A stretch of 31,208 bases of DNA from a virus. Of the stretch, positions 5,517 through 29,812 are shown in pieces. The notes under the pieces were generated by a model, which was not told the DNA's origin, did not search any database, and saw nothing but the letters and a program-made list of their open reading frames with translations. The stretch is taken from IMG/VR virus record IMGVR_UViG_3300040807_001405, positions 1 to 31,208 of that record, one strand, 5' to 3'. A program made the translations under genes and the position numbers. Position 1 is the stretch's first letter; each line of letters begins with the position of its first letter.

Positions 5517-5782
5517 CCGTTGCTTCCTTTCTGGATCATGCCGAACCCGGCGACCTTCGTCGTCGGCTCGACTCTCTCGGCTTGCGTCTCCTTCAGGACC
5601 GACGCGTCGAAGATCTTCGCGTGACGCATCGCTCGATCGACGGCGGTCGACTCGTCGATCCTTCCGGGAGAGACGCGAACGACCTTCTCGGTCCCGTCGA
5701 GGAAGACGAAGCGAACCCGCCAGTCCTTCGACGACGGTCGCAGGATTCCCTGCGAGATTAGATCCTCCTTCCCTCGGATCAT
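5513..5782 (-). CDS. Hypothetical small tail-region protein
   Basis: An 89-residue protein starting MIRGKEDLISQG, coupled by ATGA to the tail-tube-like gene before it and to the chaperone after it. It has a short beta-like segment (DWRVRFVFLDGTEKVV), a helical middle (DESTAVDRAMRHAKIF) and a basic, flexible end. I recognise no family. Small proteins between the tail tube and chaperone are common in siphophages and are usually structural or assembly factors. Confidence 0.7.
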   Translation of the reverse strand: MIRGKEDLISQGILRPSSKDWRVRFVFLDGTEKVVRVSPGRIDESTAVDRAMRHAKIFDASVLKETQAERVEPTTKVAGFGMIQKGSNG

Positions 5783-6222
5783 GGCGTCTCATCCCACGCC
5801 GTCGTCGGACCGGCAGAGTCGTTCATCTCGAAGTTGAACGTCACCGTCGAGTCGCCGTCGTTCGTCACGCCGAAGGCGTATGAGGAGAAGACCGCCGCGA
5901 AGTTGATCGTGCAGAGCGGAGCGACCGTCAGCGTGATCTCTCCGCCTGCTCGGTCGTCGAGCGTCGTCCCGGCTGCGGCGTGCTTGATCGGCGAGAAGCC
6001 GTTGTCGGTTCCGGTATCGGCTCCGTCCCAGTAGGTCGGCATTCCTCCGGCGGATCCGGTGACGTCGAGGACGTTCGACGCGCGGCGGTTGTGGACGCTC
6101 GCGCCGTACCCGGTCGTGACCGAGGTCGTTCGCGTCATGGTCGCGGACCACGTATTCAGCGTCGCGTTGAACCCGGACGGTAGGGAGACGGCACCGTCGG
6201 AGCCGATAGCGTAGTTCGACAT
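5779..6222 (-). CDS. Major tail (tube) protein-like, paralogue 2
   Basis: A 147-residue protein starting MSNYAIGSDGAVSLP. It is clearly related to the gene immediately upstream (6226-6645): both begin with an AIGSDG-like segment, followed by LNTWSAT, an RTTSV/TG segment, a TGSAGG motif and a C-terminal D(G)D(S/A)TVTFNFE motif. The composition is Ser, Thr, Gly and Ala-rich and fits a beta-barrel tube protein. Position before the chaperone and tape measure supports a major tail protein. With two paralogues side by side, one may form the tube and the other a variant, decoration or terminator-proximal subunit. Which is the main tube subunit cannot be told. Confidence 0.75.
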   Translation of the reverse strand: MSNYAIGSDGAVSLPSGFNATLNTWSATMTRTTSVTTGYGASVHNRRASNVLDVTGSAGGMPTYWDGADTGTDNGFSPIKHAAAGTTLDDRAGGEITLTVAPLCTINFAAVFSSYAFGVTNDGDSTVTFNFEMNDSAGPTTAWDETP

Positions 6223-13741: not shown

Positions 13742-14926
13742 TCAGAGGATCCTAAAATCGAACCCGGAGCGGGCGGAGGTATCGAGGCATCGGAGAGCCA
13801 GAGCCAACGCACAGACGCCGTCGTCGTGCATACCCGACGGAGCCTCGTAGCGAACGCCGGTTCGCGTGTAGATATACTCGAAAGTGTCGCACTCGACGCG
13901 TAGCCATCCGTCAGGAATCGAGACCCGACGCGTCTGGAACGCGGACGCGAGTCCTTCCATGATCTGCTGCTTCGACGTCGCGGAGAACTTGAATCCCTCG
14001 ACGCGAGGCGACTTCCGTTGAAGACCCTCGACGATCGGGTCGCCGACGCCGGTCGAGTCGATCAGGGATGGAGCCTCGCCGAGAAGACCGAGGATCCGAC
14101 GCTCGGTCTCGGCCCACGGTCCTTGCCACCGTTCGAGCATCGCGACCCTTCCGTCCTTGTCGAGACCGACGACGACCGTCCAGTCGACCGACTTCGCGAG
14201 GTCGATCCCGATCGCGACGACCGGGTCCGTCGAGAGCGGCGAGACGCAGGCGGCGATCGAGTCGAGTCCGAACGGGTTCCCGCCGTCGTCCGCCGGGATG
14301 CCGAGGAACTCCTGCTCGAAGACGTGCGCCGGGAGTTCCTGCCTCGCCGCCTCGATCTCGCCTTCCGGGATCGTCGGGTTCGTCGTCGTCGGGAGCCGCC
14401 ACGATCGCCAGCCGCCGTCGCCGATCTGCCCGCGCTCGAAGCACTGGTGGAAGAACGATCGACCCTTCGGAGTACCAAGGAACCACGCGTCGCCTTGCCG
14501 GTCCGCGAGCGTCGCCCGGATCGTCTCCTGCCACGCCGGACCGAGGTCGCGGACGATCCCAGCCTCGTCGATGATCACGCGGTCGTAGCGGCGTCCTCGT
14601 CCCGCGTCGACCGAGTCGAGAGACCAGAAGTCGATCGAGCCGCCGGAGACGAGATCGAACCGACGCTCGACGCGGTCCGCCTTGACGATCGCGGGCGCGA
14701 GGATCTTCTCGACGTCCCTCCACGGATCCGCGAGGTAGCGGTAGGTCGGAGCGAACCAGCCGACCTCGCCACCGTCGATCGCTCGGTCGATCGCGAGTTG
14801 GATACCGAGATGAGTCTTCCCGAATCGCCGACCGCATTCGAGGACGTTGAACCGAGCGGACTCGTCGAGGACTCGACGCTGCCCGGCGTGGAGCGCGTCT
14901 TCGATTGGTTCGATCGCGATCTTCAT
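13742..14926 (-). CDS. terL: Terminase large subunit
   Basis: A 394-residue packaging motor. The ATG at 14926 overlaps the mom-like stop as ATGA; upstream ATGs read into the mom-like gene in another frame. The ATPase part shows Walker A CGRRFGKTH (31-39), Walker B VIIDEA (117-122) and the FLGTPKG coupling motif (149-155). The nuclease part shows Asp242 in IGIDLAKSVDWT, Asp290 in LIDSTGVGDP, and Asp368/Asp369 in MHDDGV. All key residues are present, so both translocation and cutting should be intact. It is compact for the family. The small-terminase-like gene is about 4 kb upstream, separated by the tail-fibre, ParB-like and mom-like genes. Confidence 0.95.
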   Translation of the reverse strand: MKIAIEPIEDALHAGQRRVLDESARFNVLECGRRFGKTHLGIQLAIDRAIDGGEVGWFAPTYRYLADPWRDVEKILAPAIVKADRVERRFDLVSGGSIDFWSLDSVDAGRGRRYDRVIIDEAGIVRDLGPAWQETIRATLADRQGDAWFLGTPKGRSFFHQCFERGQIGDGGWRSWRLPTTTNPTIPEGEIEAARQELPAHVFEQEFLGIPADDGGNPFGLDSIAACVSPLSTDPVVAIGIDLAKSVDWTVVVGLDKDGRVAMLERWQGPWAETERRILGLLGEAPSLIDSTGVGDPIVEGLQRKSPRVEGFKFSATSKQQIMEGLASAFQTRRVSIPDGWLRVECDTFEYIYTRTGVRYEAPSGMHDDGVCALALALRCLDTSARSGFDFRIL

Positions 14927-15603
14927 CCCGGAAGCGCACGGGTCGGAGTTGCACCGCCCTCTCCGGACTGGACGCCCGGTGCATCGCTGTAAATGCTTCG
15001 TGCGCGCTTTGGGAATGGCTGAGACTGCAAAGGTATACGATACTGCTTTGAATTTCCAATCAGTTTCGCATAGCAGTGTTTTCCGCCTGTTGAACGCGAT
15101 GGCAAAGACCACGCATCATCTTTTCCGATACTGCCGCTTGCTATTGCTCCGCCAATTGTTCGCGGATGAACCCATCGACCTTTGAACAAATATTCTCTAC
15201 CTCCGTCGTTTTTTCCAAAGTACAAAAATCCGCTTGCTTGATAGATTCCACCGTGATGACCTTGTCCGGTATCGGCATATGAAACCAAGACCATCAATCC
15301 GGGATTAGTTCTCGCAACCATTTTCGTTGCGATTGCGATGATTCGAGAGACCGGAGTTTGATGCCTAGCAAGTGCGACTCTAGCCAACTCGGTAATTTGT
15401 GTTGATTGACATCGAAAGCGTTTCACGACCGGAGGCATCGGATTAGTAAAAATCACGCATCCGATGAAAGCACCGTTTTCCCAAACACCGATCTTCACAG
15501 TCTTGAATTTTGGGATGCATTTTGAATAATGCCATCGCTCACAAGCGTATGTTGCTGCTTTCCCAGAACACCAGTCGAGTTTGAGATCAGGCTTCAAACT
15601 CAT
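14923..15603 (-). CDS. mom: Mom-family DNA adenine modification protein
   Basis: A 226-residue protein starting MSLKPDLKLDWCSG. Mu Mom converts certain DNA adenines to N6-carbamoylmethyladenine and protects phage DNA from many restriction enzymes; it has an acetyltransferase-like fold. Family features visible here are DWCSGKAATYACERWHYSK (10-28), KIGVWENGAFIGCVIF (37-52), ELARVAL (72-78), VSYAD (107-111), QGHHGGIYQASGF (114-126), GKHCY (174-178) and QPFPKRA (195-201). The ATG at 15603 lies inside the ParB-like gene (17-nt overlap), and the stop overlaps terL as ATGA. Part of the gene is much lower in GC than its surroundings (22 of 60 bases at 15181-15240), a sign of transfer. Confidence 0.88.
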   Translation of the reverse strand: MSLKPDLKLDWCSGKAATYACERWHYSKCIPKFKTVKIGVWENGAFIGCVIFTNPMPPVVKRFRCQSTQITELARVALARHQTPVSRIIAIATKMVARTNPGLMVLVSYADTGQGHHGGIYQASGFLYFGKNDGGREYLFKGRWVHPRTIGGAIASGSIGKDDAWSLPSRSTGGKHCYAKLIGNSKQYRIPLQSQPFPKRARSIYSDAPGVQSGEGGATPTRALPG

Positions 15604-16066
15604 GTCCGCATTCCGGGCATTTTGTCGGGTTCTTCTCGTCGAGTTTCGATTGCTCGTCTGCCGTGACCGCCGCAAAGTCAGGGATCTTCAGCGAGTCCAT
15701 TTCTTCGTCGGAGAACGCGAGCAGGTCGCGAGTCTCGTCGTCCATCGAGTCGAGCAGCGAGCGGAGAACCTCGTCGTCCCACTCCGCGAGTTCGGCGGTG
15801 CGGTTGTCCGCGATACCGAACGCGGTCGCCTGCGTCTGGTCGAGCGTCGTTCGGACGATCGCGATCTCGGTCCAGCCGAGACGCTTCGCCGCTTCGAGCG
15901 TGCCGTTGCCCGCGATGACGACCTCACGCTGATCGACGACGATCGGCTTCTGCTGTCCGAACGCCCGGAGCGAGTCGCGTATCGCGGCGAGGTTGCGTTC
16001 GTCGTGCTTCCTCGCGTTCGCCGGGTCCGGCGAGAGCGAGTCGATCGGAACCGTCTCGGTCTGCAT
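15587..16066 (-). CDS. ParB-like nuclease-domain protein with C-terminal CPxCGH motif
   Basis: A 159-residue protein starting MQTETVPIDSLSPDPANARK, with an AAAGGAAG ribosome-binding site. The ParB/sulfiredoxin-like domain shows PANARKHDERN (15-25), QQKPIVVDQREVVIAGNGT (38-55) and ADNRTAEL (86-93), typical of phage ParB-domain proteins. In other phages this domain is often fused to an adenine or cytosine methyltransferase. Here no methyltransferase follows in frame; instead a mom-like gene overlaps the 3' end. The C-terminus is KCPECGHEFEA, half of a zinc knuckle. It may help target or regulate DNA modification. The usual GHGR-like segment is GNGT here, so nuclease or nucleotide activity is uncertain. 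Confidence 0.88.
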   Translation of the reverse strand: MQTETVPIDSLSPDPANARKHDERNLAAIRDSLRAFGQQKPIVVDQREVVIAGNGTLEAAKRLGWTEIAIVRTTLDQTQATAFGIADNRTAELAEWDDEVLRSLLDSMDDETRDLLAFSDEEMDSLKIPDFAAVTADEQSKLDEKNPTKCPECGHEFEA

Positions 16067-26010: not shown

Positions 26011-26487
26011 TCATCGGAACGAGACTCGCGTGAGCGTCGAGTCTTCGCGTGCCGGGTAGTAGGAGGACTCCCGCTTCGAGGGATCCGAGATCGAGACGAT
26101 CTTGATGTCGGTGCCGCTCGTCCCTACTCCGCGAGAGACGACCCGGCAGACGTGCCAGACCTCTCCGAAGAGACGGAGGACGAGGTCGCCGAGTTCGACT
26201 TGATACGGTCGAACGAGTTCGCAGTTCTCCGGTCCGTAGCGGACGCGGTTCTCGAACGCGTTCGAGATCCACGTCTCGCGTCCCGCATGGTCGACGTGGA
26301 ACTGGAAGAGGTTGTCGCTGGGACGACTTCCCTCGGCGATGACCGTCGCTGGGTAGTAGTCGAGACCGGACTCGTGGAAGAGATCGGTGAGCCGCTCTTC
26401 GATCTTCTTCGCGTCTTCGAGGCTTCCGCAGAAGACGGTCGCTTCGGTTCGGTCGTGCGTCGTTTCGGTCTTGGTGATCTGCTGCAT
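26011..26487 (-). CDS. Hypothetical early protein
   Basis: A 158-residue protein starting MQQITKTETTHDRTEA, with the standard early leader GAACAAGGAGCAACG. It has two apparent parts: an N-terminal half with alternating helix and strand (FCGSLEDAKKIEERLTDLF) and a C-terminal half that looks like a small beta-barrel (VELGDLVLRLFGEVWHVCRVV). The sequence is acidic overall. No family is recognised. As an early-region gene it may be a host-takeover or anti-defence protein. Confidence 0.75.
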   Translation of the reverse strand: MQQITKTETTHDRTEATVFCGSLEDAKKIEERLTDLFHESGLDYYPATVIAEGSRPSDNLFQFHVDHAGRETWISNAFENRVRYGPENCELVRPYQVELGDLVLRLFGEVWHVCRVVSRGVGTSGTDIKIVSISDPSKRESSYYPAREDSTLTRVSFR

Positions 26488-26520
26488 GTTCGTTGCTCCT
26501 TGTTCGGTCGTTCGGTCGTA

Positions 26521-26549
26521 GGGGAGACCGGGAACGTCCCGGCCTCCCC
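26521..26549 (-). terminator. 13-bp stem-loop between genes
   Basis: The arms 26521-26533 and 26537-26549 pair over 13 positions around a 3-nt loop. The only imperfection is A opposite C on the plus strand, which becomes a G-U pair in the minus-strand RNA, so the structure suits RNA read from that strand. It begins nine bases after the stop of the 26558 gene. Confidence 0.6.
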
Positions 26550-26557
26550 GCGTTCGG

Positions 26558-26770
26558 TCAGTCGACGAGAAGGATCTTCATCATCGACTCGTGGTTCGCC
26601 TGCATCTTCGCGAGTTCCTTCTCGGCGTTCTCGTAGAGCCAGCATCGGTTCGACCAGCCTTCGCGGCGAGCCTCGCGAGCCTGCTCGACGATGAACTCGC
26701 GAGTCTTCTTCCAGCAGGAGAAGGCGTTCATCAGGACTCGGGCGGTCTCTTCTGGGGTCTGCTTGTTCAT
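26558..26770 (-). CDS. Small hypothetical early protein, first gene after P3
   Basis: A 70-residue, mainly helical protein starting MNKQTPEETARVLMNAF, with Trp/Cys residues in CWKKTREF and NRCWLYEN. It is the first gene after promoter P3 and has the standard early leader. No family is recognised. Being first after an apparently strong promoter suggests it is made early and in quantity. Confidence 0.75.
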   Translation of the reverse strand: MNKQTPEETARVLMNAFSCWKKTREFIVEQAREARREGWSNRCWLYENAEKELAKMQANHESMMKILLVD

Positions 26771-26773
26771 GGT

Positions 26774-26789
26774 CGTTGCTCCTTGTTCG
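26774..26789 (-). promoter_or_regulatory. Conserved early Shine-Dalgarno leader
   Basis: CGAACAAGGAGCAACG (minus strand) precedes the 26770 gene. The same string occurs at 26491-26506, 27623-27638, 28002-28017, 29072-29087 and 29791-29806; a variant (GCAG replaces GCAACG) is at 28559-28572. AAGGAG is a strong ribosome-binding core, but the conservation extends well beyond it. Confidence 0.85.
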
Positions 26790-26800
26790 GTCGGTCGGTT

Positions 26801-26887
26801 CGAGGAACGCTTCCCCGATGTCCCAACTATAACCGGACTTTCCCCCAGTGTCTACCCTCTTCCTCGATTTTTCTCGATTTTCTCCGA
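26801..26887 (-). promoter_or_regulatory. Early promoter P3 with 5' stem-loop and phased A-tracts
   Basis: The minus strand has -35 TAGACA (26854-26849), a 17-bp spacer and -10 TATAGT (26831-26826). Upstream are two tandem A-rich elements, GATTTTTCTCGA (26866-26877) and GATTTTCTCCGA (26876-26887, plus-strand reading), about ten bases apart, as in an UP-type element. About two bases after the predicted start (near 26819), 26817-26801 forms a seven-pair stem with a G-U pair and a 3-nt loop, at the likely mRNA 5' end. Confidence 0.78.
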
Positions 26888-27078
26888 GGACGGATATCGA
26901 GCCGGAAGCCGAGTTCCGCCGCCTTCGAGATGACCGCGTCGAGGTCGCGGCGATACGGGTTCCCCGGCGAGAGCCGGACGACGAGGTCGCCGGGATCGAA
27001 GCCGTCGAACCGGGTGGCCGCCGCCCAGAGGCGGCGACCTTCCCGGAGGAGGAGACGGTGGGCGCGAGGAGCAGTCAC
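26827..27078 (-). CDS. Small basic hypothetical protein, GTG start
   Basis: An 83-residue protein starting MTAPRAHRLLLREGRR (GTG). The GTG at 27078 overlaps the upstream stop as GTGA. Its sequence (LWAAATRFDGFDPGDLVVRLSP; RRDLDAVISKAAELGFRLDIRP) suggests a small alpha/beta protein with basic ends (Arg/Lys-rich near 62-70). Its stop lies inside the -10 element of promoter P3, so transcripts through this gene enter the next unit. No family is recognised. Confidence 0.78.
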   Translation of the reverse strand: MTAPRAHRLLLREGRRLWAAATRFDGFDPGDLVVRLSPGNPYRRDLDAVISKAAELGFRLDIRPRRKSRKIEEEGRHWGKVRL

Positions 27079-27419
27079 GATCCCGCCTCCAGTTCGATGG
27101 CCTTCTCTTCGAGTTCGAGCGACTCGACGAGAGCCTCGACGATCGCGTCCTCGTCGTCGAGTTCGATCCAGTTCGTCGAGCGGTGCGCGATGATCGGGAG
27201 GAAGACCGAGACCATCGCGTCCTCGCGGTCGCGCCTTGTGATCTCGACGATCTCCGCGCTCGCGTCGTCGCTCCACGGTTCGTGACCTGCTCGCTCGACG
27301 TCTGCGGTGACGCGAATCTTGAGCCAGTAGATTCCGGGTCCGACCTCGATCCCGTTGTGCTTGTACGCCTTCTCGATGACGAGTTCCTCGTCGAGAGTGA
27401 ATTCGATGGTCTCGCTCAT
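27075..27419 (-). CDS. Hypothetical acidic early protein
   Basis: A 114-residue acidic protein starting MSETIEFTLDEELVIEK. It overlaps its neighbours by ATGA (27419-27416) and GTGA (27078-27075). Beta-like first half (FTLDEELVIEK; YWLKIRVTADV) and a Glu-rich helical end (DEDAIVEALVESLELEEKAIELE). The acid load could mimic DNA or bind basic host proteins, but I recognise no family. Confidence 0.75.
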   Translation of the reverse strand: MSETIEFTLDEELVIEKAYKHNGIEVGPGIYWLKIRVTADVERAGHEPWSDDASAEIVEITRRDREDAMVSVFLPIIAHRSTNWIELDDEDAIVEALVESLELEEKAIELEAGS

Positions 27420-27619
27420 TGGTCTTCTCCTCCGTATACGTCGCTGTTCGCGTAGCCGTGCGACTCGCCTGCGGCGATGACGATCCCGCCGTCGTTCGCG
27501 AGTACGGCGTGAACTCCGCAGATGAGCGGGTACGTCGGCTGGATCGCGATCGAGACCGAGAGGTCGCCGTGTTCTTCTTCGAGTCTTTCAAGTTCTTCGA
27601 TGAGGGTAGAGATATACAT
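27416..27619 (-). CDS. Small hypothetical early protein
   Basis: A 67-residue protein starting MYISTLIEELERLEEEHGDLSV. The pattern of an acidic N-terminal helix followed by a short strand with DLSVSIAIQP and a later VLANDGGIVIAAGE resembles small phage proteins that begin with a helix and give an E-D-G turn. It has the standard leader but no stem-loop in the 28-bp gap upstream, the one exception in its class. Confidence 0.72.
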   Translation of the reverse strand: MYISTLIEELERLEEEHGDLSVSIAIQPTYPLICGVHAVLANDGGIVIAAGESHGYANSDVYGGEDQ

Positions 27620-27647
27620 TTTCGTTGCTCCTTGTTCGTAGCGGGTT

Positions 27648-27998
27648 TCAGGAATTCCAGTTCTGTATCGTCGCGAGAGGCAGTCGGTCCTGCCCGGACG
27701 CCTTCGAGTTCCACTCCATGTTGAAGGGTCGGTCGGAGTAGAGCCTGAAGCACGTTTCTTCGCAGTAGAGCGGGTGGCGGAAGCACTCGCGGTTCCCCAG
27801 CGAGCGAACCTTGCGTCGAGTCCACGATCCGGTTGAACGGACGGCTCCGTCTTCGATCTCGACGAGCGCGACCTGCACCCAGTCGCCTTTCCTTTCCATG
27901 ACCTTCACCGCTTGAATGCTGACGGTCTTGTCGCTTCGTCGAACGTTTCCGGTATGGAGGAGGATGTCTCCGGCTTCGATCTTCGTAGTGGTCTGCAT
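27648..27998 (-). CDS. Hypothetical early protein with Cys-rich C-terminal half
   Basis: A 116-residue protein starting MQTTTKIEAGDILLH. An N-terminal beta-barrel-like segment (DKTVSIQAVKVMERKGDWVQVALVEIEDG) is followed by a segment with ECFRHPLYCEETCFRLY, where three Cys and a His could bind metal. It has the standard early leader and a 10-bp stem-loop upstream. No family recognised. Confidence 0.74.
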   Translation of the reverse strand: MQTTTKIEAGDILLHTGNVRRSDKTVSIQAVKVMERKGDWVQVALVEIEDGAVRSTGSWTRRKVRSLGNRECFRHPLYCEETCFRLYSDRPFNMEWNSKASGQDRLPLATIQNWNS

Positions 27999-28027
27999 CG
28001 TCGTTGCTCCTTGTTCGAGTAGGGGAA

Positions 28028-28052
28028 GGGAGGCGGGTACGTCCCGCCTCCC
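28028..28052 (-). terminator. 10-bp stem-loop between genes
   Basis: GGGAGGCGGG and CCCGCCTCCC pair around a 5-nt loop. It begins eight bases after the stop of the 28060 gene and is followed by TTCCCCT and then the conserved leader of the 27998 gene. No long U-run is present, so complete termination is doubtful. Confidence 0.55.
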
Positions 28053-28059
28053 CGGTTGG

Positions 28060-28554
28060 TCATCGCTTGAATCGGTCGGAGAAGACCCGGGAGATCGCGA
28101 CCTTGCTCTTCCAGTTGATCGGGTCGGCGTGGTGGATCTCGGAAGAACCGGCGACGCGGAAGACGAGCCGAACCTCTCCGCAGTCGAGGTAGGAACCGAG
28201 GACGGTTCGACCGTTCTCCCACTCGTCGCAGCAGACGATGAAATCGCCTCGCTTGAGATCCTTCGCGAAGACCTTCGGCTGGTCGTCGATCTGATCCCGC
28301 GACTTCGCGAAGGAGTACGCCGCCGCCTTCGCCTTCGCGGCGGTGCCGTAGTCGTAGACCTCGAACGCGTGGACCGTGCCGTTTTCGATCTCGACGTCGT
28401 AGGCTTCGGTGACGAGTCGGCTGTCGCTCGTCGCGACGCCGAAGCGGTCGCGGTTGTTGAGACCGAGACGCTGCTCGATCTGGGACCCGTTCGCGAGTTC
28501 CCAGACGTTTCCGAATTCTCCGTCGCGGTCCTGAATCTTGATGGCGGTCTTCAT
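28060..28554 (-). CDS. Hypothetical early protein, first gene after P2
   Basis: A 164-residue protein starting MKTAIKIQDRDGEFG, with the variant leader GAACAAGGAGCAGCACC. It is the first gene after promoter P2. The sequence seems to have a beta-rich N-terminal half, an Ala/Lys helix (TAAKAKAAAYSFAKSRDQ) and a C-terminal half with paired Cys (FIVCCDEWENG). No family is recognised. Its promoter position suggests early expression. Confidence 0.75.
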   Translation of the reverse strand: MKTAIKIQDRDGEFGNVWELANGSQIEQRLGLNNRDRFGVATSDSRLVTEAYDVEIENGTVHAFEVYDYGTAAKAKAAAYSFAKSRDQIDDQPKVFAKDLKRGDFIVCCDEWENGRTVLGSYLDCGEVRLVFRVAGSSEIHHADPINWKSKVAISRVFSDRFKR

Positions 28555-28582
28555 GGTGCTGCTCCTTGTTCGAGGTCGATCC

Positions 28583-28658
28583 GGCGGGACGTTCCCGCCT
28601 GAGAGGACTATACCCGACGTTCTACTACTTGTCGAGTCCTTCGGGGACTTTCTCCGAA
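28583..28658 (-). promoter_or_regulatory. Early promoter P2 with 5' stem-loop and upstream element
   Basis: The minus strand has -35 TCGACA (28635-28630), a 17-bp spacer and -10 TATAGT (28612-28607). The hairpin GGCGGGA-ACG-TCCCGCC (28599-28583) begins almost at the predicted start (near 28600). Upstream, GACTTTCTCCGA (28646-28657, plus-strand reading) is the counterpart of the A-tract elements of P1 and P3, ten bases beyond the -35. Confidence 0.8.
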
Positions 28659-28678
28659 GATTCCTGAAGAAAGTCCCC
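28643..28678 (-). terminator. 11-bp stem-loop between early genes, overlapping the P2 upstream element
   Basis: GGGGACTTTCT and AGAAAGTCCCC pair over 11 bases, with a 14-nt loop. It begins 13 bases after the stop of the 28691 gene. One arm coincides with the A-rich element above promoter P2, so it may serve as both an end for upstream RNA and a protein-binding palindrome. There is no U-run. Confidence 0.5.
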
Positions 28679-28690
28679 GCCGCTCGCCGG

Positions 28691-29068
28691 TCAGATCAGC
28701 GTCGAGATCGCGTCGAAGAACTCGGTTCGCTTCAGGAAGACCTTCCACCGCTTCGCCTCCTCGACGGCGTCCTTCTTCCACGATCGTTTCCGGAAGCCGT
28801 ACCGTCCGCCGGGGACGTCGTCTGCGAAGAGTCGGACGATCGAGCCGTCGATCATCTCGGCGAAGGCGTACGAGAGATCCCAGTTGGGGTAGCCGGGATC
28901 GGAGAGGAGCCGGACGCGGAGGAACCGAGCGAATCGAGGCTGAGCCCAGATCGGTCGTCCGTCGTCGAAGTACGGGACGGAGTCGATCGACGGTCGTCCC
29001 TCCTGCGGTCCTCGCTCCTCGAAGTTCTTCATCCCGTTGAGTCCGTTCGTTTCGGTGAATCCTTGCAT
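28691..29068 (-). CDS. Hypothetical early protein
   Basis: A 125-residue protein starting MQGFTETNGLNGMKN, with the standard early leader and an 11-bp stem-loop upstream. The sequence has YPNWDLSYAFAEMIDG and RYGFRKRSWKKDAVEEAKRWKV, aromatic and basic patches of a small globular protein. No family is recognised. Read with the genes on either side it belongs to the early accessory set. Confidence 0.74.
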   Translation of the reverse strand: MQGFTETNGLNGMKNFEERGPQEGRPSIDSVPYFDDGRPIWAQPRFARFLRVRLLSDPGYPNWDLSYAFAEMIDGSIVRLFADDVPGGRYGFRKRSWKKDAVEEAKRWKVFLKRTEFFDAISTLI

Positions 29069-29098
29069 GGTCGTTGCTCCTTGTTCGTAGTAGGGGAA

Positions 29099-29126
29099 GG
29101 GAGACCGGCGACGCTGCCGGTCTCCC
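29099..29126 (-). terminator. 11-bp stem-loop between genes
   Basis: GGGAGACCGGC and GCCGGTCTCCC pair perfectly around a 6-nt loop. It begins nine bases after the stop of the 29135 gene, followed by TTCCCCTACTAC and the conserved leader. It is the same type as the stem-loops at 25977, 26521 and 28028. Confidence 0.6.
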
Positions 29127-29134
29127 CGATTCGG

Positions 29135-29788
29135 TCAGCCGATCGACTTCGAGGTGTCGAACATCGACGCCATGACCATCTGGCCGAGCGTTCGAGGATT
29201 CTCAAGATGGGCGCGTTGACGGCGACCCTCGTCCGCCGCGAGGTTCTCGCGTTGTAGTCCGGTCGTGATCGTGCGAGCCTCCGAGCATTCCGCGACGCGA
29301 ATCGCGTAGCGGAGGAAGGCGATGTCGGCTTCGTTACCGAGCGAGATCGCGGCGGCGAGTCGACGGTCGAGCGTGACGAGCCGCTGACCGGCGGCGAACT
29401 CCTTCGCCTTCGCCTTCTGCTCGTCGGTGAGTTCGACGGTCGCCGGAGCGACGGTCGCTTCCTTCGACGCCGCCTCCTCGGCGGTCGCCTTGCCGGGATA
29501 GACCTTGACGACCTGAAGGTCTTGGTTCTCGACCGTCCACTTGTAGGATCGACCGTCGCGTTCGGCGTAGCGAGCCTGATCCCGGTAGAAGTCGTTCCGG
29601 TCGGCGAGCCACTTCTCGGCGAGTTCCTTCGATCGGTTGATGACTTCGAGTTGACCGGCGGCGTTCGCGACGCCGTAGACGTGTCCGTCGGCTTCGACGG
29701 CGGCGAGGACGGCGGCTCGCTTGCAGTTCTTCGAGGTGGTGAGTTCGCCGTTGCGGACGCCGTAGAAGGTCGAGGTCGAGGTGGTCAT
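29135..29788 (-). CDS. Hypothetical first early protein, after P1
   Basis: A 217-residue protein starting MTTSTSTFYGVRNGE, with the standard leader. An N-terminal alpha/beta stretch (ELTTSKNCKRAAVLAAVEADGHVYG) is followed by helices with Tyr/Arg-rich sequence (DFYRDQARYAERDGRSYKWTV), an Ala/Lys/Glu-rich linker and a helical end. No family is recognised. It is the first gene after P1, at the start of the early operon. Confidence 0.75.
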   Translation of the reverse strand: MTTSTSTFYGVRNGELTTSKNCKRAAVLAAVEADGHVYGVANAAGQLEVINRSKELAEKWLADRNDFYRDQARYAERDGRSYKWTVENQDLQVVKVYPGKATAEEAASKEATVAPATVELTDEQKAKAKEFAAGQRLVTLDRRLAAAISLGNEADIAFLRYAIRVAECSEARTITTGLQRENLAADEGRRQRAHLENPRTLGQMVMASMFDTSKSIG

Positions 29789-29812
29789 TTCGTTGCTCCT
29801 TGTTCGAGGTCG

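Follow-up and report, generated by a model that had tools for sequence, protein, structure and literature searches.

A phage mom locus with a ParB-like partner gene and a tRNA-Gly-like gene points to glycyl-tRNA as a probable donor for Mom

Which molecule supplies the group that Mom enzymes attach to DNA? The product of Mu Mom is an adenine N6 glycinamide (carbamoylmethyl) adduct; to our knowledge, the donor of this group has never been shown, and the issue has been open since the modified base of Mu was identified. One paper names a CoA compound, for example glycyl-CoA, as the donor for Mom (PMC7824862). The locus described here is part of a 31,208-base virus record of IMG/VR, the whole of which is referred to as the window, and it raises the question anew: its mom gene follows a gene for a ParB-like protein and carries in its 3' end a tRNA-Gly-like gene, the most informative part of the locus (Table 1). 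We consider it probable that three parts make up a DNA-modification module at this locus, in which glycyl-tRNA is the Mom donor, a dedicated tRNA(Gly)-like RNA is encoded in the mom 3' end and a ParB-like protein acts as partner. The gene positions, the 17-nt overlap of parB and mom and the ATGA shared by the mom stop (14925-14923) and the terL start (14926-14924) are as given in the initial annotation, as is the coincidence of the KCPECGHEFEA tail of the ParB-like protein with the mom start codon.

Table 1. Coordinates of the mom locus within the window
Feature	Positions	Strand	Description
ParB-like ORF	15587-16066	minus	159 aa; ParB/Srx core and C-terminal CPECGHEF tail; phrog_620 type
Mom ORF	14923-15603	minus	226 aa; conserved domain, residues 7-199
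parB-mom overlap	15587-15603	minus	17 nt
tRNA-Gly-like RNA gene	14930-15005	minus	76 nt; within the mom 3' end
terL, terminase large subunit	13742-14926	minus	phrog_2, 3.7e-37; Pfam Terminase_6N at its cut-off

Profile searches place the 226-residue protein inside the Mom family, as had been proposed from the bare sequence. The Pfam Mom profile (PF25680) matches with E=6.7e-35 and a score of 121 (cut-off 27.1 bits), covering residues 7-199 of the protein and positions 2-202 of the 202 in the profile, and the 'Mom-like' family phrog_1384 matches with 1.4e-44; E-values throughout are rough. The crystal structure of Mu Mom (8bv8) is the top match of the AF2 model (pLDDT 83.9; E=6.8e-11, TM 0.65/0.72), with residues H58, Y59, E108, R111, S124 and D149 of Mu Mom corresponding to H25, Y26, E72, R75, S86 and D111 of the window protein. 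The tail, residues 201-226, has no predicted structure; residues 201-225, precisely the stretch beyond the Pfam domain, are encoded by the tRNA-like gene. The last 26 codons of the mom ORF lie outside the Mom domain and cross the tRNA-like gene.

For the 159-residue protein, the ParB-like call made earlier agrees with the profile matches (phrog_620, 5.1e-43; Pfam ParB_N, 4.5e-7), and the structural matches of its AF2 model (pLDDT 84.9) are ParB, Noc, PadC and sulfiredoxin. Pfam detected only ParB_N and weak zinc tails in the 159-aa protein, with no helix-turn-helix DNA-binding domain after ParB_N. The P-motif arginine, a residue of both the nucleotide site and the active site, is replaced by threonine. 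Threonine is found at this position in 16/118 Mom-linked ParBs; the 76 ParBs whose partner is another enzyme or was left unassigned all have arginine. In relatives, an R-to-A test showed that the P-motif arginine is required for nucleotide binding (PMC12704722); its loss makes an NTP switch in the window ParB doubtful.

Adjacent ParB-like and mom-like genes, for which the initial annotation had suggested a survey, proved to be a recurrent pair. Each of the 80 mom loci kept from the IMG/VR scan, a sampling that favours Moms close to the queries, has a same-strand gene of the ParB family upstream, overlapping mom nearly always. When the gene slots around mom were assigned by a greedy gene caller, one family filled slot -1 in 57/59 IMG/VR loci, compared to at most 2/39 for any one family in slot -2, 24/70 in slot +1 and 24/56 in slot +2. 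In this Mom clade, the adjoining ParB gene is the sole neighbour conserved on the upstream side, and the pairing is far beyond chance. Overlaps occur in 97 of 106 parB-mom pairs, the commonest length being the 17 nt of the window (27/106), followed by 14 nt and 4 nt (21/106 each). GTDB genomes with ParB before Mom come from Alpha-, Gamma- and Deltaproteobacteria, Planctomycetes, Acidobacteria and Firmicutes, and cultured phages with this arrangement infect Enterococcus, Arthrobacter, Microbacterium, Psychrobacter and Salinibacter; 13 other Mom-bearing phages, Mu included, have no ParB in that slot. In two ParB-less loci, L013 and L019, it is taken by an HNH gene, and a natural ParB-Mom fusion was not found among the loci tested. 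On a quick and rough Mom tree, the ParB-linked genes form one large clade and a second clade beside Mu Mom (99% SH-aLRT), which means more than one origin, or more than one exchange, of the pairing. We also asked whether the pairing merely follows from the two genes being near the terminase and rejected this explanation, as the pair lies away from the terminase in Appa, GravityBall and phiEf11, and the link of terminase to mom is much weaker than that of ParB. Our search of the open-access literature, which was not exhaustive, found no account of ParB and Mom together as a module of general occurrence.

The same ParB family is also associated with other DNA-modifying enzymes. A scan with tail-less ParB cores yielded 81 ParB genes, spread over 79 new loci, which represent nearest relatives rather than a random sample. 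Fusions to N6/N4 methyltransferases, a type already described (PMC12704722), accounted for 51 of the 81. The others are followed by a TAGT glycosyltransferase (13), a C5 methyltransferase (5), Mom (5), an ABC-ATPase/GNAT protein (2), a TET/JBP oxygenase (1) or a partner left unassigned (4), including L200, which turned out to be a methyltransferase fusion as well. A DNA-modification system of GNAT and ABC-ATPase proteins had been predicted earlier (PMC7824862). Partner types are intermixed on the ParB tree, with 32 changes, and closely similar cores have different partners: of two cores that are 97% identical, one precedes Mom and the other a C5 methyltransferase (L173, L196), and of two that are 83% identical, one precedes TET and the other Mom. 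This bears out the earlier observation that Mom fills a slot held elsewhere by methyltransferases, since near-identical ParB cores precede both. The C-terminal tail is a better guide to the partner than the core, the nearest neighbour predicting it correctly in 137/138 cases from the tail and in 112/138 from the core; the partner-specific tail may be a docking tail, or it may reflect mere physical linkage. The targeting-plus-modification module of the initial annotation can thus be retained as a recurrent module of ParB and a modification enzyme, albeit with many partner types. DNA-modifying enzymes of unrelated chemistry commonly have members of one phage ParB family as partners, making this family a marker for finding new ones.

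What the ParB-like protein does in this module is most likely to bring Mom to phage DNA or to clamp it there, as would its relatives that are fused to methyltransferases. A different role, which we regard as possible although less likely, would be one other than targeting, namely that of a transcriptional repressor similar to DndB, or of a nicking nuclease that together with Mom forms a restriction-like pair. ParB-fold DndB indeed represses a DNA-modification operon (PMC12704722), a ParB-methylase fusion nicks DNA, and Moms of jumbo phages are fused to nucleases (PMC5512222, PMC7824862). However, fusions of this core to methyltransferases, seen in at least 51 of the 79 loci, argue for action at the enzyme, and the window ParB has threonine in place of the nucleotide- and active-site arginine.

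It had further been suggested that the half zinc knuckle at the end of the ParB-like protein might work on mom in the manner of Com, the small zinc protein of Mu, without being homologous to it by eye. Homology is indeed not apparent: the Com profile (PF10122) found no match in the window ParB, and recovered a true Com in a control locus (L114). The two proteins are nevertheless connected by position. In this Rhodobacteraceae locus, the Mom is 52% identical to a ParB-linked Mom (L103) and 28% identical to that of Mu, and the slot before mom is occupied by a true Com (PF10122, 7.5e-12), not by ParB. Conversely, the Mu-like Moms of five loci (L020, L151, L164, L173, L185) have ParB where Mu has Com, and these ParB-linked Mu-like Moms are sisters of the Com-linked Mu Mom. 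Ahead of mom, ParB and Com can thus take each other's place. The proposed link between the two stands in this sense only, as a slot exchange, and a mechanism via the zinc tail is not supported. A CxxC tail is present in 112/117 Mom-linked ParBs, but also in 5/5 ParBs before C5 methyltransferases, for which reason we rejected it as a Mom-specific feature. The mom start of the window folds into a hairpin (z -1.86), but no conserved hairpin emerged at this position over 101 loci (mean z -0.19), where the start sites were no more structured or hidden than in shuffles and relatives folded differently; a Com-like translational switch was rejected on these grounds.

The tRNA-Gly-like element at the other end of mom has a 7-bp acceptor stem (7/7 paired), a 4-bp D stem, a 5-bp anticodon stem with the anticodon UCC at 14972-14970, in which G replaces U33, and a 5-bp T stem with a bulged A, followed by U73 and an encoded 3' end of UCC instead of CCA. 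The covariance model R1, whose training set included this sequence, scores it at 86.5 bits (E=2e-18). As an ordinary tRNA gene the window copy had to be rejected, being accepted neither by ARAGORN, which called no tRNA at this site, nor by Rfam, which gave only a weak match to the Tymo tRNA-like structure and no tRNA match at threshold. The elements come in two forms, a 76-nt cloverleaf (class 1) and a 68-70-nt form with shortened D arm (class 2), and the acceptor stem is a perfect 7 bp in 60/61 matches to a strict T-arm pattern. In 35 class 1 sequences, 96.7% of cells are paired and 14/21 pairs change on both sides; the double-changed cells number 149, against 36.5 in shuffled sequences and at most 24 in slid structures, counts that are somewhat inflated by the kinship of the sequences, a relatedness which the slid control retains. 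The cloverleaf is supported by covariation. It is very improbable, given this structure, that the element is a relic of an attachment site, namely a piece of host tRNA-Gly acquired through integration: temperate phages often carry 3' ends of tRNAs, but here the cloverleaf is full, its 5' half covaries, the bulge is common to the elements and the whole is tied to mom.

The 3' DNA shared by ParB-linked moms, which constitutes the 3' half of the tRNA-like structure, occurs in more than one reading frame, or altogether outside the ORF, so that its conservation does not come from coding. For the same reason GGATPTRAL, a conserved peptide at the C terminus of Mom, was rejected as a docking peptide, the same DNA being read as RRGSTDPHAP elsewhere or falling beyond the ORF. 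We found matches of R1 at the mom end in 94/96 Mom loci, of which 62 had not been used to train the model; only phiEf11 (L015) and the ParB-less Geobacillus gene (L019) were missed. The weakest matches, at about 30 bits, are within the range of ordinary tRNAs, yet have the same position at mom. In L017, the match is an ordinary tRNA-Gly(CCC) on the opposite strand just after mom. In Salinibacter phage B2_17, the depositor had annotated the element as tRNA-Gly. In a control set of 74 loci (600 kb), where this ParB has other enzymes as partners, R1 exceeded 18 bits only at three ordinary tRNA-Gly genes, which were named as such by ARAGORN, and in ten host genomes those of the remaining matches that were checked by ARAGORN were host tRNAs, several of them tRNA-Gly. 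An IMG/VR scan for the T-arm 18-mer that was blind to mom returned 73 distinct elements, 69 of which led to mom: 52 at its 3' end, 16 directly 5' of ParB-less moms and one farther away; three more were cut by contig ends, and one was a poor (false) match without mom. The near-exclusive linkage on either side of the gene therefore ties the RNA to Mom rather than to ParB. Among Mu-like moms the element occurs in 5/6 that are ParB-linked and in 0/17 that are Com-linked, and it is absent as well from Mu itself, from phiEf11 and from Yersinia/Serratia/Paenibacillus relatives; if Mom needs glycyl-tRNA, host tRNA-Gly must therefore serve these enzymes.

The element overlaps the mom ORF, abuts the start of the next gene and finds its best Rfam match in a viral tRNA-like structure, all of which would suit a cis-acting element of the mom transcript that is bound or cut by RNase P/Z or GlyRS and sets the expression of mom or terminase, without being a glycine donor. 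We consider such a role unlikely, as the element may stand on either side of mom, follows the last of three tandem moms in one locus (L014), and is found in different reading frames. Moreover, a processing signal has no need of the GlyRS identity bases, which the element retains in full, those of the anticodon among them.

This identity set is seen most clearly across 140 elements, in which G1-C72 and C2-G71 are invariant (140 each), G3-C70 is present in 133 and U73 in 137, while acceptor pairs 4-7 vary freely. C35-C36 is present in 84/88 elements in the 76-nt register, with base 34 free, and the four exceptions resemble one-base register shifts that still have NCC in the loop. The T-arm patterns used for collecting the elements fix some of the reported bases, and invariance within the T arm is in part their product; they leave base 73 and the acceptor, D and anticodon arms free. 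The conserved bases correspond to the identity set of E. coli GlyRS, and the window copy carries all six of its features (G1-C72, C2-G71, G3-C70, C35, C36 and U73). CCA is encoded in 97/140 elements.

Features of translation are kept less well. U33, which is needed in translation, is found in 36/88 elements and absent from 52/88. The T stem, the region that EF-Tu reads, has the bulged A in 88/88, a feature that the search pattern itself demands, although model R1 is not so restricted. It is hence quite improbable that these are ordinary phage tRNA-Gly genes that supply codons and stand at mom by chance. This explanation would account for the glycine anticodons and identity bases, and for the one copy (L424) that ARAGORN accepts as tRNA-Gly; it conflicts with the missing U33, the bulge in every T stem and the almost exclusive occurrence of T-arm-seeded elements with mom, as well as with the failure of ARAGORN to find nearly all of them, when control phages carry their ordinary tRNA-Gly in tRNA clusters.

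Full charging identity combined with degraded translation features is what would be expected if glycyl-tRNA is the donor, as it is for Fem enzymes, and aminoacyl-tRNA is used by other enzymes of the GNAT fold, such as FemX and L/F transferase. We thus think it likely that Mom enzymes are glycyl-tRNA-dependent DNA transferases and that many phages encode a translation-poor tRNA-Gly in or beside mom. In the pathway we propose, the RNA would be excised from the transcript, its CCA completed, and the product loaded with glycine by the host glycyl-tRNA synthetase. With U33 often missing and the bulged A always in the T stem, it would largely be kept from translation. The GNAT-fold Mom would then move glycine from the charged RNA onto adenine N6 in phage DNA, with the ParB-like protein bringing the enzyme to the DNA or clamping it there, as its methyltransferase-fused relatives would. 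On chemical grounds, the resulting N6-glycyl adenine, an isomer of carbamoylmethyl adenine, could rearrange intramolecularly into the latter. Moms that lack the element would draw on the tRNA-Gly of the host. No prior report of a link between Mom and glycyl-tRNA was found in the open-access literature, which we did not search exhaustively. The tRNA-Gly-like gene tied to mom thus points to glycyl-tRNA as the Mom donor. If true, this would be the first DNA base modification known to us that is made with an aminoacyl-tRNA, and it would show tRNA in a new role away from the ribosome and introduce a new class of RNA that tRNA finders mostly miss.

Considering systems that are already known, the Mu com-mom operon shares with the window the enzyme family, its fold and catalytic residues (PDB 8bv8), and a small gene overlapping the mom start; the window differs from it in having ParB in the Com slot and a tRNA-Gly-like gene, which is absent in Mu, and its Mom is only 23% identical. 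The phage ParB-methyltransferase fusions and ParB-CTPase fold proteins, described in a study that makes no mention of Mom, belong to the same ParB family (phrog_620/498; PMC12704722), but in the window the partner is Mom, encoded by a separate overlapping gene, and the P-motif arginine is lost. With bacterial tRNA-Gly the element has in common the cloverleaf, the GlyRS identity bases and the NCC anticodon. It departs from it in that most elements have no U33, the T stem contains a bulged A, the 8-nt D loop is mostly without GG, the D arm of class 2 is very short, and the gene is embedded in an ORF and occurs almost exclusively with mom. Aminoacyl-tRNAs serve as donors outside the ribosome in several systems, including the non-translating tRNA-Gly of the staphylococcal cell wall, the Fem ligases, MprF and L/F transferase. 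The staphylococcal tRNA-Gly and Fem systems resemble the present one in the proposed use of glycyl-tRNA outside translation and, in the case of Fem, in the GNAT fold of the enzyme; what would set the Mom system apart from all of these donors is its proposed acceptor, a DNA base.

Among the 79 loci recovered by scanning with tail-less ParB cores, 13 ParB genes precede a gene for a TET-associated glycosyltransferase (TAGT), which follows the ParB-like gene immediately in L128, L129, L135, L142, L145, L148, L168, L170, L182 and further loci (L-numbers denote the compared loci from virus, phage and bacterial genomes). In L131, this place is taken by a TET/JBP oxygenase gene, and the ParB core of this locus is 83% identical to that of the Mom-linked L030. 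The ParB-like genes of L156 and L175 are directly followed by an ABC-ATPase + GNAT protein (phrog_11143), a predicted DNA acyl-modification enzyme. In L193, the neighbour of the ParB-like gene encodes a fusion of a histidine phosphatase with a cytidylyltransferase-like domain, which may constitute a further modification route.

Both ParB and mom genes are multiplied in some loci. A single ParB gene precedes two to three diverged mom genes in tandem in L014, and likewise in L005, L008, L035 and L081; L096 has, in succession, a long ParB-containing ORF, with 424 aa the size of ParB-MTase fusions, a stand-alone ParB and Mom. The tRNA-Gly-like gene, an RNA element located in the 3' end of mom in the window, is placed after the last mom of the tandem set in L014, and is itself duplicated in Psychrobacter phage Y8A. 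In an alternative arrangement, it lies immediately 5' of a ParB-less mom (L309, L317, L320, L327, L329, L334, L347, L350, L367, L369, L373 and others).

Elsewhere in the window, at least five small genes share one repeated upstream leader, CGAACAAGGAGCAACGA, which includes the ribosome-binding-site-like motif AAGGAG.

Coordinates of the features
Locus	Position	Feature
Window	26464-29812 (-)	repeated leader
L014	5848-7904	ParB, tandem moms
L020 (Y8A)	5662-5729, 5734-5802	tandem tRNA-Gly-like genes 3' of mom
L096	666-3177	long ParB-containing ORF, ParB, Mom
L102	324-2363	two consecutive ParBs upstream of a Mom with 130-residue N-terminal extension
L114	3355-4276	Com, Mom
L131	853-2276	ParB, TET/JBP
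L156	1999-3617	ParB, phrog_11143
L175	4989-6625	ParB, phrog_11143
L193	4998-6687	ParB, phosphatase fusion

The Moms of L114 and L103 carry Ala at the position of Mu D149, rendering their activity uncertain. In L114, a Mom of the ParB-linked clade is preceded not by ParB, but by Com, the zinc protein that precedes mom in Mu.
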